Shown: in pieces, positions 283-46,613 of the stretch
How positions within the stretch are numbered: position 1 is the stretch's first letter
How the letters are laid out: every line of letters starts with the position of its first letter
Assembly: GCA_020631355.1 (NCBI GenBank)
Contig: JAHDHL010000007.1
Coordinates: forward strand, 62,001-126,000
Length of the DNA: 64,000 nucleotides
Source of the DNA: Saprospiraceae bacterium
GTDB lineage: Bacteria > Bacteroidota > Bacteroidia > Chitinophagales > Saprospiraceae
Direction of reading: 5' to 3'
The notes under the pieces: model-generated
What the model was told of the DNA's origin: nothing
The model's database searches: none
Seen by the model: only the letters and a program-made list of their open reading frames with translations
Translations under genes and position numbers: made by a program

Positions 283-1551
283 TCATTTCACTTCCAATAA
301 TTCGTTCCAGTCCGTAGTGTATTCAGGTGATTGGCGTTCTTTTCTGTACAGTTTATGAATATCCTCATCATAACTTGCCATTCGGAGTGTTCCCTTTCCG
401 AACTTAGAATTGATTTCATCCATTGTATCCATCAGGTCATTCCGTCTTGGGATATGGGATGTCGATTCGAATAAATGGGTCTGTATAGGATTCCGAGGGC
501 GCAAATCAAAGAGCCCAATACCTAATTTTTTGTAGGATGCACTATGGTCATAAATGGAATCCAATACATCCTTTGCTGCACGGATGAGTAGTGACGTATC
601 AGAGGAAGCAACAGGCAAACTACAAACGCCCGACAGCTTGAGTTGCCGTACATTGTCCTTGAATGGATTCGTACGGATGAATACACTCAATCCCAGGGCC
701 ACCTGGTTATAATTCCTCAATTTCTCCCCAGCTCTGGCAGCATGCTTGCTTACGGCTTCCATCAATACGTCCTTTCCTTTCAAATCAGATTTGAATGTTC
801 TGGAAACCAGAATGTGCTTTCTCGAAGTACGGGGTTCTATCAGGTCATTACAGGGAATACCATTCAATTCCAATAGCATTCGTTGGCCCAATACACCCAA
901 ACGTTTCCGTATCGCTTGCTCATTCGCCTTTGTGAATTCCCTAATCGTATGGATTCCCATTTGATTCAATCGGTGTTGCAATCCCTTGCTGATACCCCAA
1001 ACCTTATTCACAGGTAGTTCATCCATTATCTTGTCATTCGGTTCTATGACATATACCCCACTCCCTGAATAATTATTAGCCTTAGCCATTTTATTAGCGA
1101 GCTTGGCCAGTGTCTTAGTAGGACCAAAACCAATGGATACAGGAATGCCTGTCGAACGCAGAATCCATGCCCTTGTCCTCAGACCATGCTCCATCAGTTG
1201 CTTTCGCTCGAAACCATTGGCACGAATGAATGCCTCATCTATCGAGTAAACCTCAATCTCTGCAAATGCCTGTTCCAAAATATCCATTACCCTATCCGAC
1301 ATATCTCCATACAATCGGTAGTTCGATGATAATATGGCCGTATTATGTCGACTCAGTATCTCCTTGCATTTCCAATAAGGAATAGCCATCGGAATATCCA
1401 AGGCTTTCAGTTCCTTACTCCTAGCTACGATACAACCATCATTGTTCGATAGAATGGCAACGGGCCTATCCTTCAATCTTGGATTGAAAGCCCGTTCACA
1501 GGATGCATAAAAATTATTACAATCCGCTAATCCATAATAATTCATCTCCAC
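283..1551 (-). CDS. umuC: UmuC, Y-family translesion DNA polymerase (Pol V catalytic subunit)
   Basis: A complete 422-residue Y-family polymerase of usual UmuC length. The palm carboxylates are visible: Asp10 in GLADCNNFY and Asp105-Glu106 in YSIDEAF. A helix-hairpin-helix region follows (about 180-215), then the little-finger domain. Near the C terminus QTHLF resembles a beta-clamp binding motif. The protein copies past DNA lesions together with the processed UmuD' dimer. No umuD lies beside it; an altered umuD is 23 kb away on the same strand. The 280 bases upstream are shared with a divergent TonB receptor gene. Function is secure; its partner in this organism is not. Confidence 0.95.
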   Translation of the reverse strand: MEMNYYGLADCNNFYASCERAFNPRLKDRPVAILSNNDGCIVARSKELKALDIPMAIPYWKCKEILSRHNTAILSSNYRLYGDMSDRVMDILEQAFAEIEVYSIDEAFIRANGFERKQLMEHGLRTRAWILRSTGIPVSIGFGPTKTLAKLANKMAKANNYSGSGVYVIEPNDKIMDELPVNKVWGISKGLQHRLNQMGIHTIREFTKANEQAIRKRLGVLGQRMLLELNGIPCNDLIEPRTSRKHILVSRTFKSDLKGKDVLMEAVSKHAARAGEKLRNYNQVALGLSVFIRTNPFKDNVRQLKLSGVCSLPVASSDTSLLIRAAKDVLDSIYDHSASYKKLGIGLFDLRPRNPIQTHLFESTSHIPRRNDLMDTMDEINSKFGKGTLRMASYDEDIHKLYRKERQSPEYTTDWNELLEVK

Positions 1552-24357: not shown

Positions 24358-24738
24358 TCATACAGGGAAGTGCAGAACGACGGTCACTACTCCCCATACC
24401 ACCAATTCCGCATCACTTGATATTCTTGTGGATGGTACATCCGGATGTGCAGCCCGCAACCAGATTGCATCCCCCTCTGGCATGTATTTCCTTACCAGAT
24501 ATTCACGATTTATCTCTGCCACAATGATATCACCATATTGGGGCGGAAAAACGGAGCGATCCACAACCAATACATCCTCATCGTGGATGCCCGCATGCAA
24601 CATTGCATTCCCTTTCATTCGTAAAAAATAGGTAGCCGTAGGATGTTGGATTAACAAATCATCCAGACTCAAGTTCGCTTTCTTATAGTCGTCAGCAGGT
24701 GACGGGAATCCCGTACACCGGTTCTTTCTCCTCTTCAT
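24358..24738 (-). CDS. umuD: UmuD-like protein lacking the catalytic Ser-Lys dyad
   Basis: A 126-residue S24 (LexA/UmuD) fold protein that aligns closely with UmuD: CTGFPSPADDY at the processing region, LLIQHPTATYFLRMKG, GIHDEDVLVVDRS, GDIIVAEI. The catalytic serine of GDSM is alanine here (KGNAML, codon gca). The catalytic lysine of E-F-T-V-K is arginine (REYLVRKY). Both halves of the dyad are therefore lost. Only about nine residues precede the normal cleavage point, so the chain is already close to UmuD' in size. It could act as a constitutive, cleavage-independent partner of the UmuC at 283-1551, or be decaying. Confidence 0.85.
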   Translation of the reverse strand: MKRRKNRCTGFPSPADDYKKANLSLDDLLIQHPTATYFLRMKGNAMLHAGIHDEDVLVVDRSVFPPQYGDIIVAEINREYLVRKYMPEGDAIWLRAAHPDVPSTRISSDAELVVWGVVTVVLHFPV

Positions 24739-25080
24739 CTCAAAATATGGTGGAGGTTATTCCTCCTTGGTTCTCAATAGTATGCACCACCATCAGGGAC
24801 CCTCTCCCGTAGATGATGATATTTTGTAGTTCTGACGTACTTGAAAGCAGTAATCGAATCCAAATTTAAAAACATTTTGTTTAAAATTATTTATTTTAAC
24901 ATATCCGCACGCTCAATAATATTTTCCAAATCATTGTTGATTCATACCATCATCTATATTTGTGGGAAAATCCTGGGTTATCATACCAGAATCGAGTCAC
25001 CTGAAGGGAACGCTTTTGTCTATAAGGGTGTTCTAGTGCTTTATTTCTTGCAATAACAGCATCATTAAACTGGCAGCCTT
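24739..25080. other. Divergent intergenic region, umuD / MFS transporter
   Basis: 342 bases without a convincing gene. A TATATTTG box at 24955-24962 (plus strand) could drive the MFS gene with a leader of about 110 bases. A 71-codon open frame in the region is rich in Ile, Lys and Phe codons and has no ribosome-binding context, so I do not call it. I could not identify a damage-response operator for umuD. Confidence 0.45.
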
Positions 25081-41683: not shown

Positions 41684-44446
41684 TTACTGAACGGCCACTT
41701 TCTTATTAATGGTCTTACCATTCGCTGTCAATTGGATGTGATACATCCCCTTTGCGACACCTCCAAGGTCAAGCAGTTCGATTTGCTGTCCGATATATAC
41801 GGATGTATTGCCCCATGTCTTTATCTCACGACCTGTCATATCCAATAATGTGATGTTCAAATCCATATTTTCCAATGCTTCGAACTCGATATTCACCTCA
41901 CCCCTCGTTGGGTTTGGATAAACAGACAGACCGGTCAATGTACCTTCGATTTCCTCATTGGAAACAGAGAATATGAAGGCATTCGCTTCTACCCTTTCGG
42001 AAATACACTCAATCTTTTCCTTTTCGATGTTCCAATTATAGAAGTAATAATAGTAGCCATTACCATAGACAGATGTAGTAATCTCACCTACGTCGCCGAT
42101 TGGATATGGATAATTTACACCACCATCATTTCTGAACATGTTATTCTGAGGGCAACGCAAGGAAAGATCGTTTCCTACAGGCACCTCAAAATTCAAATCA
42201 AGCGTATGCTCTCCCTGACCCAAATCAAAGCTAGCCGTAGCCAAAATATTATCATTCTGATCCACTAACTGGATATCCCTCACACCGGATGGTGCACCAT
42301 TAGGAACATAGACGGTGACATTCTTCAATGTAAATGGTTCGTATACTTCAAAGTAACTGTATGCACCTGTACTTGGCAATCCACCGCCACCAGCATTATC
42401 GGTCTTACCTCCATTCTGTTCTTCACCACCATCGACAAGTTGTGACTCCACATAAACGGTAGAATCCATATCCATATAATCAATATCGAAAGAACTACCT
42501 GTACCAATCTGGTTTCCTCCGGTTGGACTATCAAACCAAACCAGATTATCACCTGTGGCAGTAATCGTAGCTGGTCCTGGGTCATTGATAACTGCATTCT
42601 GTACAACGGGAGTTCCAGGATTCAATACAGTAATCTCTACTGATTGCGAAGTCAATGTATTACTGGAACAGGTACTTTCAGTTTGGACGAAATATGTACC
42701 GGACTCTGTAATAGTGATACTTTCCCCTGTTTCACTATTGGACCAGACCGGATTCATACCACTACCCAAATCGGTTGTCAATGTAACTGTTTCTCCAAAG
42801 CAGAACTTATCATCACCATCCAGACTGATGATGGGATCTGTCTCCTCGATGATGGTGGTCGTAATCGAGTTACTCAAGGAAACACAATCGTTTGCATCCG
42901 TTGATACCACACTATAGTTTCCTGCTTCCGTTACCGTAATCGTTGGAGTAGTAGCTCCATTGGACCAAGTGTAATTAGCGAAACCTGCTGGTGCAGCCAA
43001 TTCTACGGAACCACCCACACAGAATGCTGCGTTTCCTGTTACCTGAATATCTGAAGCAGCCAATAAACAATCCGCTTCAGGGATATTGTGTGTCGTATTG
43101 ATTTGTGCATCCTCGATTACCGTCTTCACACCTGATGGCCACTTGATGACCATGGAATCGATTTCTGTAGCCGTACCCAAACCGAAGTGTACGGTCAAGG
43201 AACTCATAGGACTGAAGCTCTGTCCTGCACGCACCTCACGAATCTGGATACCCCAAGCACCATGAATCTCCACTCTTGCACCAATTCCGTTCTTGTTACT
43301 TACGATACCTTGGGTATTTACCTTAACCCAATTGTTGTTATTCGCATCATTGATATAAAGGGCATTCCCCTTGATGACATCAAGGAAACCATCATTATTA
43401 AAGTCTCCGATTCCTCCATCATCGAATGGCAAATCATATCCTGTAAAGGTCATATCACCATTATTCAGGTACAATTCCTTACCAAGTTCAGAGAAGATGT
43501 CAATAAAACCATCATTATTGAAATCACCCGATGCATTCTCCCATGCTCCAAGGTCATAGGGTGGAATACCAGATGACATAATGGACTCCGTGTAGTTTCC
43601 GTTTCCATCATTCACCATAAAGCGATTCTGCTCGTCATGATTTACTATGAATGCATCAAAATCACCATCATTATCAAAATCCTCGAATACGGTAGCCCAT
43701 GATTGTGCATTATCATCCATCCCGATTTGAGCTCCTACCTCGGTGTAGGTACCATCGCCATTATTCCTATACATGGCATTGGTTCTTTCGATATCACCCG
43801 GAGAAGAACCCTGACGACATTTTGTGATGTACAAGTCCGTATCCCAATCATTATCATAATCCACCCAAAGTGCAGCATAATTACCGGCAAGGTCAAGGGT
43901 TTGGATAAGGTTCTGGTCCTCTACCAAAACACCATTCCCATCATTCCTGTATGGGTGACTCTGATCCACATCGTGGCAAACAAAAGCATCCAAATGACCA
44001 TCATTATCAATATCCGCAAAAGTGGAACGTTGTGAAAAGATATAATCACTGTGATAATCCTCTGTGAATGCTGTACCATCCGCATTGGCATAGATGAATG
44101 ATACAGCCTGACCGCCTCCGAAAAGAAGATCCATGTATCCGTTTCCATCAATATCACCCGCACATAGACTCCATGTAGGATAGTTTTGTAAACTCACCGG
44201 ATATTGATTCTGGACAAAAGAACCATCTGGTTGTTGGTAATCAATCGTAATCATGTTTGTGGTTACCCTTACCACATCGTCCAAATGGTCACCATTCATA
44301 TCTACGGCGCAATCCTCATAAGAACTTCCCGATAGAGAATTCAGACTACTGGACATATTGGTGAAACTCACCTGTTGGGCCATAAGACCAACTGATGCCC
44401 CGGCTATCAGGCAGTGGATAAGTAAAATGTTGTACAATTTTTTCAT
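41684..44446 (-). CDS. FG-GAP/ASPIC surface protein with T9SS domain
   Basis: A 920-residue exported protein. After the signal peptide (ending GLMAQ) come about six FG-GAP/VCBS repeats with calcium-type loops (DMNGDHLDD, DIDGNGYMD, DFDNDGDFDAF, DFNNDGFID). An ASPIC/UnbV domain (IGARVEIHGAWGIQIREVRAG, FGLGTATEIDSMVIKWPSG) follows near 370-450, then two Ig-like repeats (CVGGSVELAAPAGFANYTWSNG, CFGETVTLTTDLGS), a beta-sandwich, and a C-terminal T9SS sorting domain (LSVYPNPTRGEVNIEF, ITLLDMTGREI). It is a calcium-stabilised surface or secreted protein encoded 10 bases after a T9SS cytochrome, so the two are probably deployed together. Confidence 0.88.
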   Translation of the reverse strand: MKKLYNILLIHCLIAGASVGLMAQQVSFTNMSSSLNSLSGSSYEDCAVDMNGDHLDDVVRVTTNMITIDYQQPDGSFVQNQYPVSLQNYPTWSLCAGDIDGNGYMDLLFGGGQAVSFIYANADGTAFTEDYHSDYIFSQRSTFADIDNDGHLDAFVCHDVDQSHPYRNDGNGVLVEDQNLIQTLDLAGNYAALWVDYDNDWDTDLYITKCRQGSSPGDIERTNAMYRNNGDGTYTEVGAQIGMDDNAQSWATVFEDFDNDGDFDAFIVNHDEQNRFMVNDGNGNYTESIMSSGIPPYDLGAWENASGDFNNDGFIDIFSELGKELYLNNGDMTFTGYDLPFDDGGIGDFNNDGFLDVIKGNALYINDANNNNWVKVNTQGIVSNKNGIGARVEIHGAWGIQIREVRAGQSFSPMSSLTVHFGLGTATEIDSMVIKWPSGVKTVIEDAQINTTHNIPEADCLLAASDIQVTGNAAFCVGGSVELAAPAGFANYTWSNGATTPTITVTEAGNYSVVSTDANDCVSLSNSITTTIIEETDPIISLDGDDKFCFGETVTLTTDLGSGMNPVWSNSETGESITITESGTYFVQTESTCSSNTLTSQSVEITVLNPGTPVVQNAVINDPGPATITATGDNLVWFDSPTGGNQIGTGSSFDIDYMDMDSTVYVESQLVDGGEEQNGGKTDNAGGGGLPSTGAYSYFEVYEPFTLKNVTVYVPNGAPSGVRDIQLVDQNDNILATASFDLGQGEHTLDLNFEVPVGNDLSLRCPQNNMFRNDGGVNYPYPIGDVGEITTSVYGNGYYYYFYNWNIEKEKIECISERVEANAFIFSVSNEEIEGTLTGLSVYPNPTRGEVNIEFEALENMDLNITLLDMTGREIKTWGNTSVYIGQQIELLDLGGVAKGMYHIQLTANGKTINKKVAVQ

Positions 44447-44456
44447 ATCTCAATTT

Positions 44457-46397
44457 TTATGGTATGATGATTTTTTCAATAATAGAATGACCATCCTTAT
44501 TTTCAAAAAGGATGATGTATAATCCTGATCCCCCTGGAATGGAGATGTCATACTGACCCGTTTGTTGCTTCTTATGTTGTAGGGAACGGCCATTCACATC
44601 ATAAACTGTGTAGGCATGTATTTCTTCTGATTGTACCGTTACCATTCCATCTGCAGAAAGATTCGACAATACCTTGATGAATGGTGTACCATTAAAGAAT
44701 TCGGATGTGCTTACAAATGTTCCCACATCAACGGAACGCTCCTTAATGAGTATGGGTTGTCTATCCGCAGCATCGAACATGGCTCTGAATTCATCAATCT
44801 CATCCGATTGTTCTGAAAACATTTCCTCCATCCATTTAGGAGGAGCCGTCTGATAATAAACCCTTGCAGTAGCAGTAAGTTCACCATTCTCCCCATTCGT
44901 GGGAACATGGAAATACAACTTATCCCCACCCGTTCCTTCCTGACCATTATCCAGGTTGAAATTCTCATCTGTTTCCGCCATTCCAACGACCCTCACAGTA
45001 TCATATACCGTATGGCTTGAGGAGAATCCCTCCGGAGCCAATCTATTATCCTTAAGGGCATGGTCTCCCCTTACGAGAACTGTCGTAACATCATTATTGA
45101 CATCCGCCATGACCATTTCGTAAATCTGTACTTCATCCTCTGAACGGATAATATCATAATGTGGTTCATAATCCGCATTATGCCCTACGACCTCAAAATC
45201 ATCATCGGTCCTACCTGAAATAAAGAGGGTATCACCTTGTTCGTTTTCTACCAAGAATTCTACGAATGCCCTACGGGAAGGATAACCCGAGGGAAACTTA
45301 TGCCCGGCCAGATTCAGCATATCCACCTCAAAGAATACGGTATCAGCCGTGCGGTCAAGGAAGTTCAAATCAAGGGCGATACTCTTGTTGTATAACATAT
45401 CCTCAGTGGCCATAATGGCCTGAGTGAACTGTTCGTAATTGGCCGTAAGGCCCAATTCATCTATATGGTCCCTGAAAATCTTCAGCATGAATACATTCGC
45501 TCCGGCCAATTCGTGGAGGTAGAATGGGCTCCTGGGTTCTGTTTCATAGCCCGCAGCAATCAGAACCTGTCCCTTGGCCATGGCTTCCATATGGCAATTC
45601 TGGCAAGAAACACCATCGTTTTCATACTTGGAATTAAGCCATTCGTGATAAGTGGCCTGCTCTACGAATGATGTTCCGGTATAATTTCCATCATAATCCA
45701 ATGTTTCCGTAACGAGCGTATGGCAACCTGCACAAATTCCTGCATCACTGATATGTTCACTATATACCGGCTGATAGGTACTGGCCATCACCATAGGGCT
45801 TTCCAATGGACTGATGTATGGCCCATAAGCAACCCTTGTGGTATCAAAGTTCAGATGCCCGGAATGCAAGCTTCCCAATTCCTTATCTGATTGTTGGTGA
45901 CAAGCCAAGCAGGAAACACCATCCAATGCAATTGAGTCACTCATCATTTCTGCCATGGAATAATATTCCTGTCCATTGTGCAATGCGGCAAAATGTCCCA
46001 TCGGAGCATGGCAGGAAGTACACTTGTGTTCTATGGCTTGCTGGTGCTGTGGATACAACAATACCTCATGGCTTACCTTTGCTCGCCAGAAAGGATCCTT
46101 GGATGAATTGGCCATCATGGTAGCCCGCCAATCATCCACAAGGTTGATATCATTCCCCAAGGGATCGACACTGGCTATTCCGGCCGTATCCATTCCATGA
46201 CATTGGATGCATTCCCCTGAACCGGCAAAAAGGACATTGAATCCACCGGGTAATGAATCCGCCATCATTTCAAATTGCAATTTCTCGAATTCGGAATGGA
46301 AGTTATCATTAGCAGTAGCCATTCTGAGTGGGAGCTCCGCCAAGAAAGGAATGGATACAATTACAAAGAAGATGAGAATCTTTTTCTTTCTGCTCAT
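44457..46397 (-). CDS. Pentahaem c-type cytochrome with T9SS domain
   Basis: About 646 residues from the preferred start MSRKKKILIFF, which places the export signal at the N terminus (an earlier ATG at 46445 adds 16 residues). Five CxxCH haem sites are present: GECIQCH, HKCTSCH, VSCLACH, GICAGCH and VSCQNCH, all in the first 285 residues, as in cytochrome c554-like electron carriers. The C-terminal half is beta-rich and ends with a T9SS-like sorting domain (VYDVNGRSLQHKKQ, SGLYIILFENKDG). A surface-exposed multihaem protein is implied. Its operon partner is the FG-GAP/ASPIC protein. Confidence 0.88.
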   Translation of the reverse strand: MSRKKKILIFFVIVSIPFLAELPLRMATANDNFHSEFEKLQFEMMADSLPGGFNVLFAGSGECIQCHGMDTAGIASVDPLGNDINLVDDWRATMMANSSKDPFWRAKVSHEVLLYPQHQQAIEHKCTSCHAPMGHFAALHNGQEYYSMAEMMSDSIALDGVSCLACHQQSDKELGSLHSGHLNFDTTRVAYGPYISPLESPMVMASTYQPVYSEHISDAGICAGCHTLVTETLDYDGNYTGTSFVEQATYHEWLNSKYENDGVSCQNCHMEAMAKGQVLIAAGYETEPRSPFYLHELAGANVFMLKIFRDHIDELGLTANYEQFTQAIMATEDMLYNKSIALDLNFLDRTADTVFFEVDMLNLAGHKFPSGYPSRRAFVEFLVENEQGDTLFISGRTDDDFEVVGHNADYEPHYDIIRSEDEVQIYEMVMADVNNDVTTVLVRGDHALKDNRLAPEGFSSSHTVYDTVRVVGMAETDENFNLDNGQEGTGGDKLYFHVPTNGENGELTATARVYYQTAPPKWMEEMFSEQSDEIDEFRAMFDAADRQPILIKERSVDVGTFVSTSEFFNGTPFIKVLSNLSADGMVTVQSEEIHAYTVYDVNGRSLQHKKQQTGQYDISIPGGSGLYIILFENKDGHSIIEKIIIP

Positions 46398-46613
46398 GGA
46401 ATAGGTTGGAATGGTTCGTTCTCTATTGTAGTAAAAATAACGCAAATAAGCTATATCATTTCATTCAAGATGATATTATGACAAATAGTAGGCATAAGGA
46501 ATATGGAATCTCCCCACATAGATTACTTTCTGCAAGCTTTACGTTAAATGACATATGCCAAAAATACCTTATTTTTAAGATATCGTAACAATGATGCCTT
46601 CAAAGAACAGGAT

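Follow-up and report, generated by a model that had tools for sequence, protein, structure and literature searches.

The need for UmuD to cleave itself imposes a delay, so that the mutagenic Pol V comes into action only once damage persists; in E. coli the assembled Pol V enzyme is activated by RecA-ATP. E. coli cells whose full-length UmuD has its nucleophile replaced (S60A) show less UV mutagenesis and greater UV sensitivity (PMC3901139, PMC5342242), and in heterodimers the arm of UmuD S60A is cut by the active site of its partner (PMC5342242). UmuD 18, which has seven residues before the processing site, stays uncleaved, has the binding behaviour of UmuD', and supports mutagenesis at a low but measurable level; UmuD 3A (T14A L17A F18A), in which the docking stretch of the arm is affected, is a mimic of UmuD' (PMC5342242). 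E. coli UmuD also binds the polymerase alpha subunit and the clamp, and its inhibitory contacts with alpha require the longer, docked arm (PMC5342242). A published model of Pol V locates the N-terminus of UmuD' inside the cleft of UmuC, close to the active site (PMC12926913), so the length of the arm would be expected to influence activity. In Bacteroidetes, Chitinophagaceae included, CTAA-N5-TTAG is an SOS operator, and the SOS repressors of these bacteria keep the Ser-Lys dyad (PMC8565304).

The window analysed here, i.e., the whole 64,000-nucleotide stretch of Saprospiraceae DNA, carries a umuD-like gene (Table 1). Judged by its sequence, the membership of its product in the UmuD fold family is not in doubt: the protein matched Pfam S24 at 2.6e-20, scored 126 bits against NCBIfam PRK10276 (cut-off 110), and had E. 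coli UmuD' and UmuD as its top matches in a PDB search. Another family model (cut-off 111) gave 51 bits and aligned solely from profile position 94 on. However, alignment to 1umu (E. coli UmuD') set GNAM opposite GDSM and EYLVRK opposite EFTVKK, so that the Ser-Lys dyad of PRK10276-type autoproteolytic UmuD is replaced by Ala45 and Arg83. The open reading frame and the loss of both dyad residues that the earlier note had described were thereby confirmed, as was its count of about nine residues ahead of the cleavage point, where such a UmuD would have an arm of ~24 residues with a docking motif. Since an in-frame TAA lies seven codons 5' of the ATG, a long arm is not translatable in frame. The note's further claim that the processing region is conserved held for GFPSPA but not for the stretch preceding it, which has no proline-hydrophobic motif. 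At 126 aa, the protein has no space for a DNA-binding domain.

Table 1. Features of the window discussed in the text.
Feature	Position	Strand	Basis or remark
umuD-like gene, non-peptidase UmuD, 126 aa / 126 codons	24358..24738	-	ORF and translation; S24 and PRK10276 matches
Codon GCA (Ala45), in the place of catalytic Ser60 of E. coli UmuD	24604..24606	-	alignment to 1umu
Codon AGG (Arg83), in the place of catalytic Lys97	24490..24492	-	alignment to 1umu
Residual N-terminal arm MKRRKNRCT, 9 residues ahead of the processing point (E. coli: 24)	24712..24738	-	
GFPSPA, conserved start of UmuD'	24694..24711	-	alignment to 1umu
Inverted repeat GGAGG-N5-CCTCC, perfect; candidate operator	24752..24766	.	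14-28 bases upstream of the umuD start
umuC, presumed partner polymerase	283..1545	-	PF00817, ORF, motifs; 23 kb from umuD, same strand

The window assembly (6.2 Mb, Saprospiraceae-type) contains one UmuD, one UmuC, one further Y-family polymerase, and RecA. A search for a second, intact umuD, which the earlier note had recommended, found none in this genome: the other four S24 matches are open frames of 244-282 aa, and the two of these that were read (266 and 244 aa) keep both GDSM and the lysine. Side by side in the window genome, near a NusG-like gene, lie two S24 proteins (L002 and L004; G000:C113:3579-4746) whose N-terminal part is longer and which retain both Ser and Lys; they are possible repressors. 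The window UmuC scored 336 bits against the NCBIfam UmuC model, under its cut-off of 431, and appears from its sequence motifs to be intact, with DCNNFY, YSIDEAF, the clamp motif, and the C-terminal tail SPEYTTDW all present. The interval between umuC and umuD consists of ordinary genes, and no remnant of a umuD was found beside umuC. Because of this 23-kb gap, which was seen in the window genome only, balanced expression of the two proteins is not assured.

Eight congeners were searched, several of them represented by incomplete assemblies, and both a UmuD and a close UmuC (68%) were found in only one, G003 (JAHDFV010000061.1, a Saprospiraceae MAG); the other seven had neither, their Y-family matches reaching at most 25-27%. 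Thus, umuD is linked to umuC in the genus by co-occurrence and, in G003, by adjacency. The G003 UmuD starts with MKRKKNRCTGFPSPA and carries KGRAM and QYVVRR, so that its short start and its Ala/Arg pair match those of the window UmuD, to which it is 52% identical. Since the same two replacements occur in a congener whose umuD and umuC adjoin, loss of the dyad predates the split. The dyad-position codons of G003 are GCC (Ala) and CGG (Arg), versus GCA and AGG in the window, and arrival at Ala/Arg through different codons in a same-genus genome of this divergence excludes sequencing error in practice. An intact dyad in sister strains together with decay of this copy, or sequencing error, had been named as what might overturn the earlier note's proposal of selection for a non-cleaving protein; the G003 sequence speaks against these, and the proposal gains support, since Ala/Arg is present in both genomes of the genus in which the gene occurs, the presence of UmuC tracks it, and no sign of decay was seen. 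Two other genes on the G003 contig share ~70% identity with genes at window positions 41687-46460, which indicates that local gene order has been shuffled.

A view of the altered dyad as peculiar to one gene or genus was not supported by a survey of the phylum, where altered dyads recur and include most Chitinophagaceae UmuDs read. Among 232 distinct UmuD domains from the order, the phylum, and beyond, 130 were Ser/Lys, 82 Ala/Arg, 11 Ser/Arg, and 9 of other types, fractions that do not represent unbiased prevalences because the query profiles included dead UmuDs. The combination Ala/Lys occurred in none of these 232 domains. Considering this absence, the 82 Ala/Arg cases, and the clustering of altered proteins on trees, the change of the dyad is not a matter of chance. 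In Chitinophagaceae (family f20, including Terrimonas ferruginea, Flavihumibacter stibioxidans, Pseudoflavitalea rhizosphaerae, and others), 39 of 53 UmuD-like frames were Ala/Arg and six Ser/Arg, mostly adjoining umuC, and seven were Ser/Lys. All 17 UmuDs read from f44, a family of another class of the phylum, were altered (14 Ala/Arg, two Gly/Arg, one Glu/Arg), and isolated cases were seen in f23, f8, f17, and f65 as well as in two orphan Saprospiraceae genes. These orphans (L016, 1396-1836; L047, 1702-2151) have the dyads Ala/Arg and Asn/Lys, have lost the processing site (NFPIPG, SFPLPG), show no umuC in their flanks, and are sister rows on a long branch. Near-identical umuC and umuD genes were also observed at L129, L113, and L289, on contigs filed under both Bacteroidota and Ignavibacteria, a split that probably reflects naming differences between collections. 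In the open papers searched, we found no report of a dyad-dead UmuD in these families.

The altered proteins of Chitinophagaceae are under strong selection. Arg is present in 74 of 75 distinct proteins and Ala in 65 (the remainder being nine Ser and one Lys). Almost all have an arm of 27-28 residues, in which conservation of Tyr11, Gly13, Lys15, and Gln19 reaches 96% or more, and the Ala, Gly, and Phe that surround the processing site do not vary. Since close pairs moreover give dN/dS values of 0.01-0.07, umuD is not decaying in this family. The Pro-hydrophobic motif (as in E. coli TFPLF), in which a hydrophobic residue comes after a proline, precedes the site in 115 of 126 intact arms vs. 0 of 92 proteins of the altered groups, in which this stretch is polar or charged. 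The residue directly before the site is Thr instead of the usual Ala in 91 of the 92 altered proteins, which belong to three groups; Thr before Gly was considered as a marker of dead UmuD and rejected, since Halomonas and others pair Thr-Gly with an intact dyad. As read from the alignments, then, altered proteins lack the nucleophile, the base, and the docking motif together, and the window protein also lacks most of the arm. Ser/Arg pairs were observed in the Chitinophagaceae UmuDs L043, L044, L045, L070, L079, L104, L137, L139, L146, and L160. The serine of the Ser/Arg proteins of this family is mostly encoded by AGY, whereas that of Ser/Lys proteins is mostly encoded by TCN. In the UmuD tree, moreover, these Ser/Arg proteins fall inside the Ala/Arg group, which suggests that serine, though not lysine, may have come back after both had been lost.

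Upstream sequences point to retained transcriptional control in Chitinophagaceae. An exact CTAA-N5-TTAG lies within 200 bp upstream of 73 of 76 altered umuD genes of the family (mean for shuffled sequence, 0.42), and the motif precedes, at no greater distance, 6 of 35 Ser/Lys umuD genes of the order. It was found before no umuD of f44 or of the window genus; in the window itself it is absent before both umuD and umuC, and the genome has no excess of it. Therefore, Chitinophagaceae have very probably kept transcriptional SOS control of the gene while losing proteolytic control. The perfect inverted repeat just upstream of the window umuD (Table 1) was considered as the operator of a regulon, a role that is unsupported, the other genome copies examined sitting inside open frames. 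Upstream of six altered umuD genes of f44 (L236, L237, L274, L275, L277, and L241) lies a common element that contains ACACATA...TATACATATA-type repeats, possibly an operator unlike CTAA-N5-TTAG.

The UmuD tree has few columns and left the window pair (the window genome and G003) unplaced, and an outlier row distorted a larger tree. UmuC trees grouped the window pair with six or seven UmuCs of Saprospiraceae whose UmuD is Ser/Lys (100/99), separately from the Chitinophagaceae clade, which includes f8 rows (100/94 and 100/99), and from f44 (100/100). These separate clades speak for independent losses of the dyad and against a single origin of all dead UmuDs. However, AU tests did not formally reject a single clade of window and Chitinophagaceae sequences (p 0.062) or of Chitinophagaceae and f44 (p 0.34), and we therefore claim no number of origins.

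The replaced residues, the short arm, their conservation, and the linkage to umuC are direct observations, as are the operator and the purifying selection in Chitinophagaceae. The reading that we favour, at somewhat better than an even chance, is that the window gene encodes a non-peptidase UmuD that is UmuD'-like when made, a Pol V subunit needing no self-cleavage. With both nucleophile and general base gone, the protein should be unable to cleave itself, and it has almost no arm to remove and no motif at the place where the E. coli arm docks. It is predicted to dimerise and to bind the separately encoded UmuC, and the resulting complex would be an active translesion polymerase of the Pol V type. 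In that case, control would be exerted through protein amount and RecA-ATP activation of the assembled enzyme, instead of RecA-stimulated cleavage of UmuD, and damage induction in the window organism would be expected. The argument draws on the family, the partner, the conservation, and the E. coli work on the arm. Since UmuD 18 is weakly mutable and S60A lowers mutagenesis in E. coli, a dead dyad alone makes no activator, and it is for the window gene, with its short arm, that the earlier note's option of a permanent UmuD'-like activator appears supported, by analogy with UmuD 18, which partly mimics UmuD' (PMC5342242). The 23-kb gap between the window genes and the absence of the known type of SOS operator before either of them weigh against the favoured reading. 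In the arm-keeping form of Chitinophagaceae, damage induction would probably be kept behind the SOS operator with the proteolytic delay removed. Taken together, these bacteria probably run a Pol V-type polymerase without the safety step of self-cleavage.

The strongest rival reading holds that the protein is permanently an inhibitor or checkpoint form, an option that the earlier note had offered as a dominant inhibitor of Pol V. Like uncleaved UmuD, such a protein would hold back UmuC and replication after damage and keep mutagenesis down, and would never be activated; we consider this unlikely, though worth weighing. The reduced UV mutagenesis and UV sensitivity caused by S60A in E. coli (PMC3901139, PMC5342242) are what it would predict, and Chitinophagaceae forms retain, as uncleaved UmuD would, a 28-aa arm with conserved residues. 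The window protein, however, lacks most of the arm, and the docking motif is gone in all altered groups; the inhibitory contacts with alpha in E. coli need the longer, docked arm (PMC5342242). In addition, since the window genome has no cleavable UmuD, its UmuC would be left without any activating partner, yet UmuC is conserved. The inhibitor reading thus fits the arm-less window protein poorly and is possible, on stronger grounds, for the arm-keeping Chitinophagaceae forms.

That the window gene is a decaying relic, separated from umuC by rearrangement and deprived of its dyad by drift, is very improbable. The 23-kb separation and the long branches to the window pair on the UmuC tree would agree with decay, but both replacements are shared by the congener in which the genes adjoin, the reading frame is uninterrupted, and silent changes outnumber those of amino acids (window vs. 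G003 umuD, pN 0.30 and pS 0.77; umuC, 0.20 and 0.85), values that indicate constraint and not its strength since pS is saturated; furthermore, the same Ala/Arg pair is fixed under strong selection elsewhere. A shade less probable still is trimming in trans, by which another S24 protein or a general protease would remove the short N-terminus so that processing still controls Pol V. The cutting of the UmuD S60A arm by its partner in E. coli heterodimers (PMC5342242) gives a precedent, and the two S24 proteins with Ser and Lys (266- and 244-aa frames) might supply the activity; against this, the genome has no second UmuD, little could be trimmed from nine residues, and the altered proteins lack the docking motif and in nearly all cases have Thr before the site. 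The idea that the partner is no longer UmuC but, e.g., the replicative polymerase, the clamp, or a regulator has the slimmest chance of all, for although E. coli UmuD binds alpha and the clamp (PMC5342242) and the orphan Saprospiraceae genes have neither a nearby umuC nor GFPSPA, in the window genus the gene is found only together with UmuC, adjoins umuC in the congener, and keeps GFPSPA.

Extending the favoured reading of a UmuD that needs no self-cleavage to the phylum, we tentatively propose, at rather less than an even chance for all parts jointly, that whole Bacteroidota families have abandoned self-cleavage while keeping the polymerase and, in Chitinophagaceae, the SOS operator; that the 28-aa arm (Y-x-G-S/T-K-x-F-x-Q) has become a permanent working part; that the change from Lys to Arg was selected; and that separate lineages reached the same Ala/Arg end state. 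Within this proposal, the Chitinophagaceae arm could for instance contact UmuC, RecA, or the clamp, and selection of the Lys-to-Arg change itself is suggested by the near invariance of Arg while the serine position varies. Natural, conserved non-cleaving UmuDs suggest that the delay imposed by self-cleavage can be given up. They also provide material for testing whether cleavage does more than free the arm, what length of arm UmuC accepts, and whether control by transcription and RecA activation is enough. In addition, a great many Bacteroidota genes are wrongly given the automatic label 'autoproteolytic subunit'.

Compared with known systems, the window protein shares with E. coli UmuD/UmuD' (PRK10276) the S24 fold family, the GFPSPA start of UmuD', a UmuC partner, and a score above the family cut-off, but it has Ala/Arg in place of Ser60/Lys97, nine residues in place of 24 before the site, and no docking motif. 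The E. coli laboratory variants UmuD 18 and UmuD S60A resemble it in arm length and in the replaced nucleophile, respectively, and likewise stay uncleaved (PMC5342242); however, they are engineered and keep the dyad Lys, whereas the Bacteroidota losses of both residues are natural and conserved. Acinetobacter UmuDAb is also a UmuD that evolved a changed role, but it has an extra DNA-binding N-terminus and retains self-cleavage (PMC8565304), while only nine residues precede GFPSPA in the window protein. The LexA-like SOS repressors of Bacteroidetes (COG2932; PMC8565304) have an S24 domain, and their CTAA-N5-TTAG precedes the altered umuD genes of Chitinophagaceae, but they act as repressors, carry a helix-turn-helix, and have an intact dyad. 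HumD of phage P1 is the closest natural precedent: it is a UmuD synthesised with no arm and is annotated as functionally complementing UmuD'. The start of HumD is GFPSPA itself; its Lys region (EYRIKRY) is retained, and a serine lies near the nucleophile position (ADSH). It is a phage gene behind a LexA site, with no adjoining umuC in the stretch shown, while the window gene is chromosomal. Against the HumD model NF051876, the window protein scored 69 bits (cut-off 120), below the level for membership; like HumD, it starts at or near the UmuD' start and has no removable arm.
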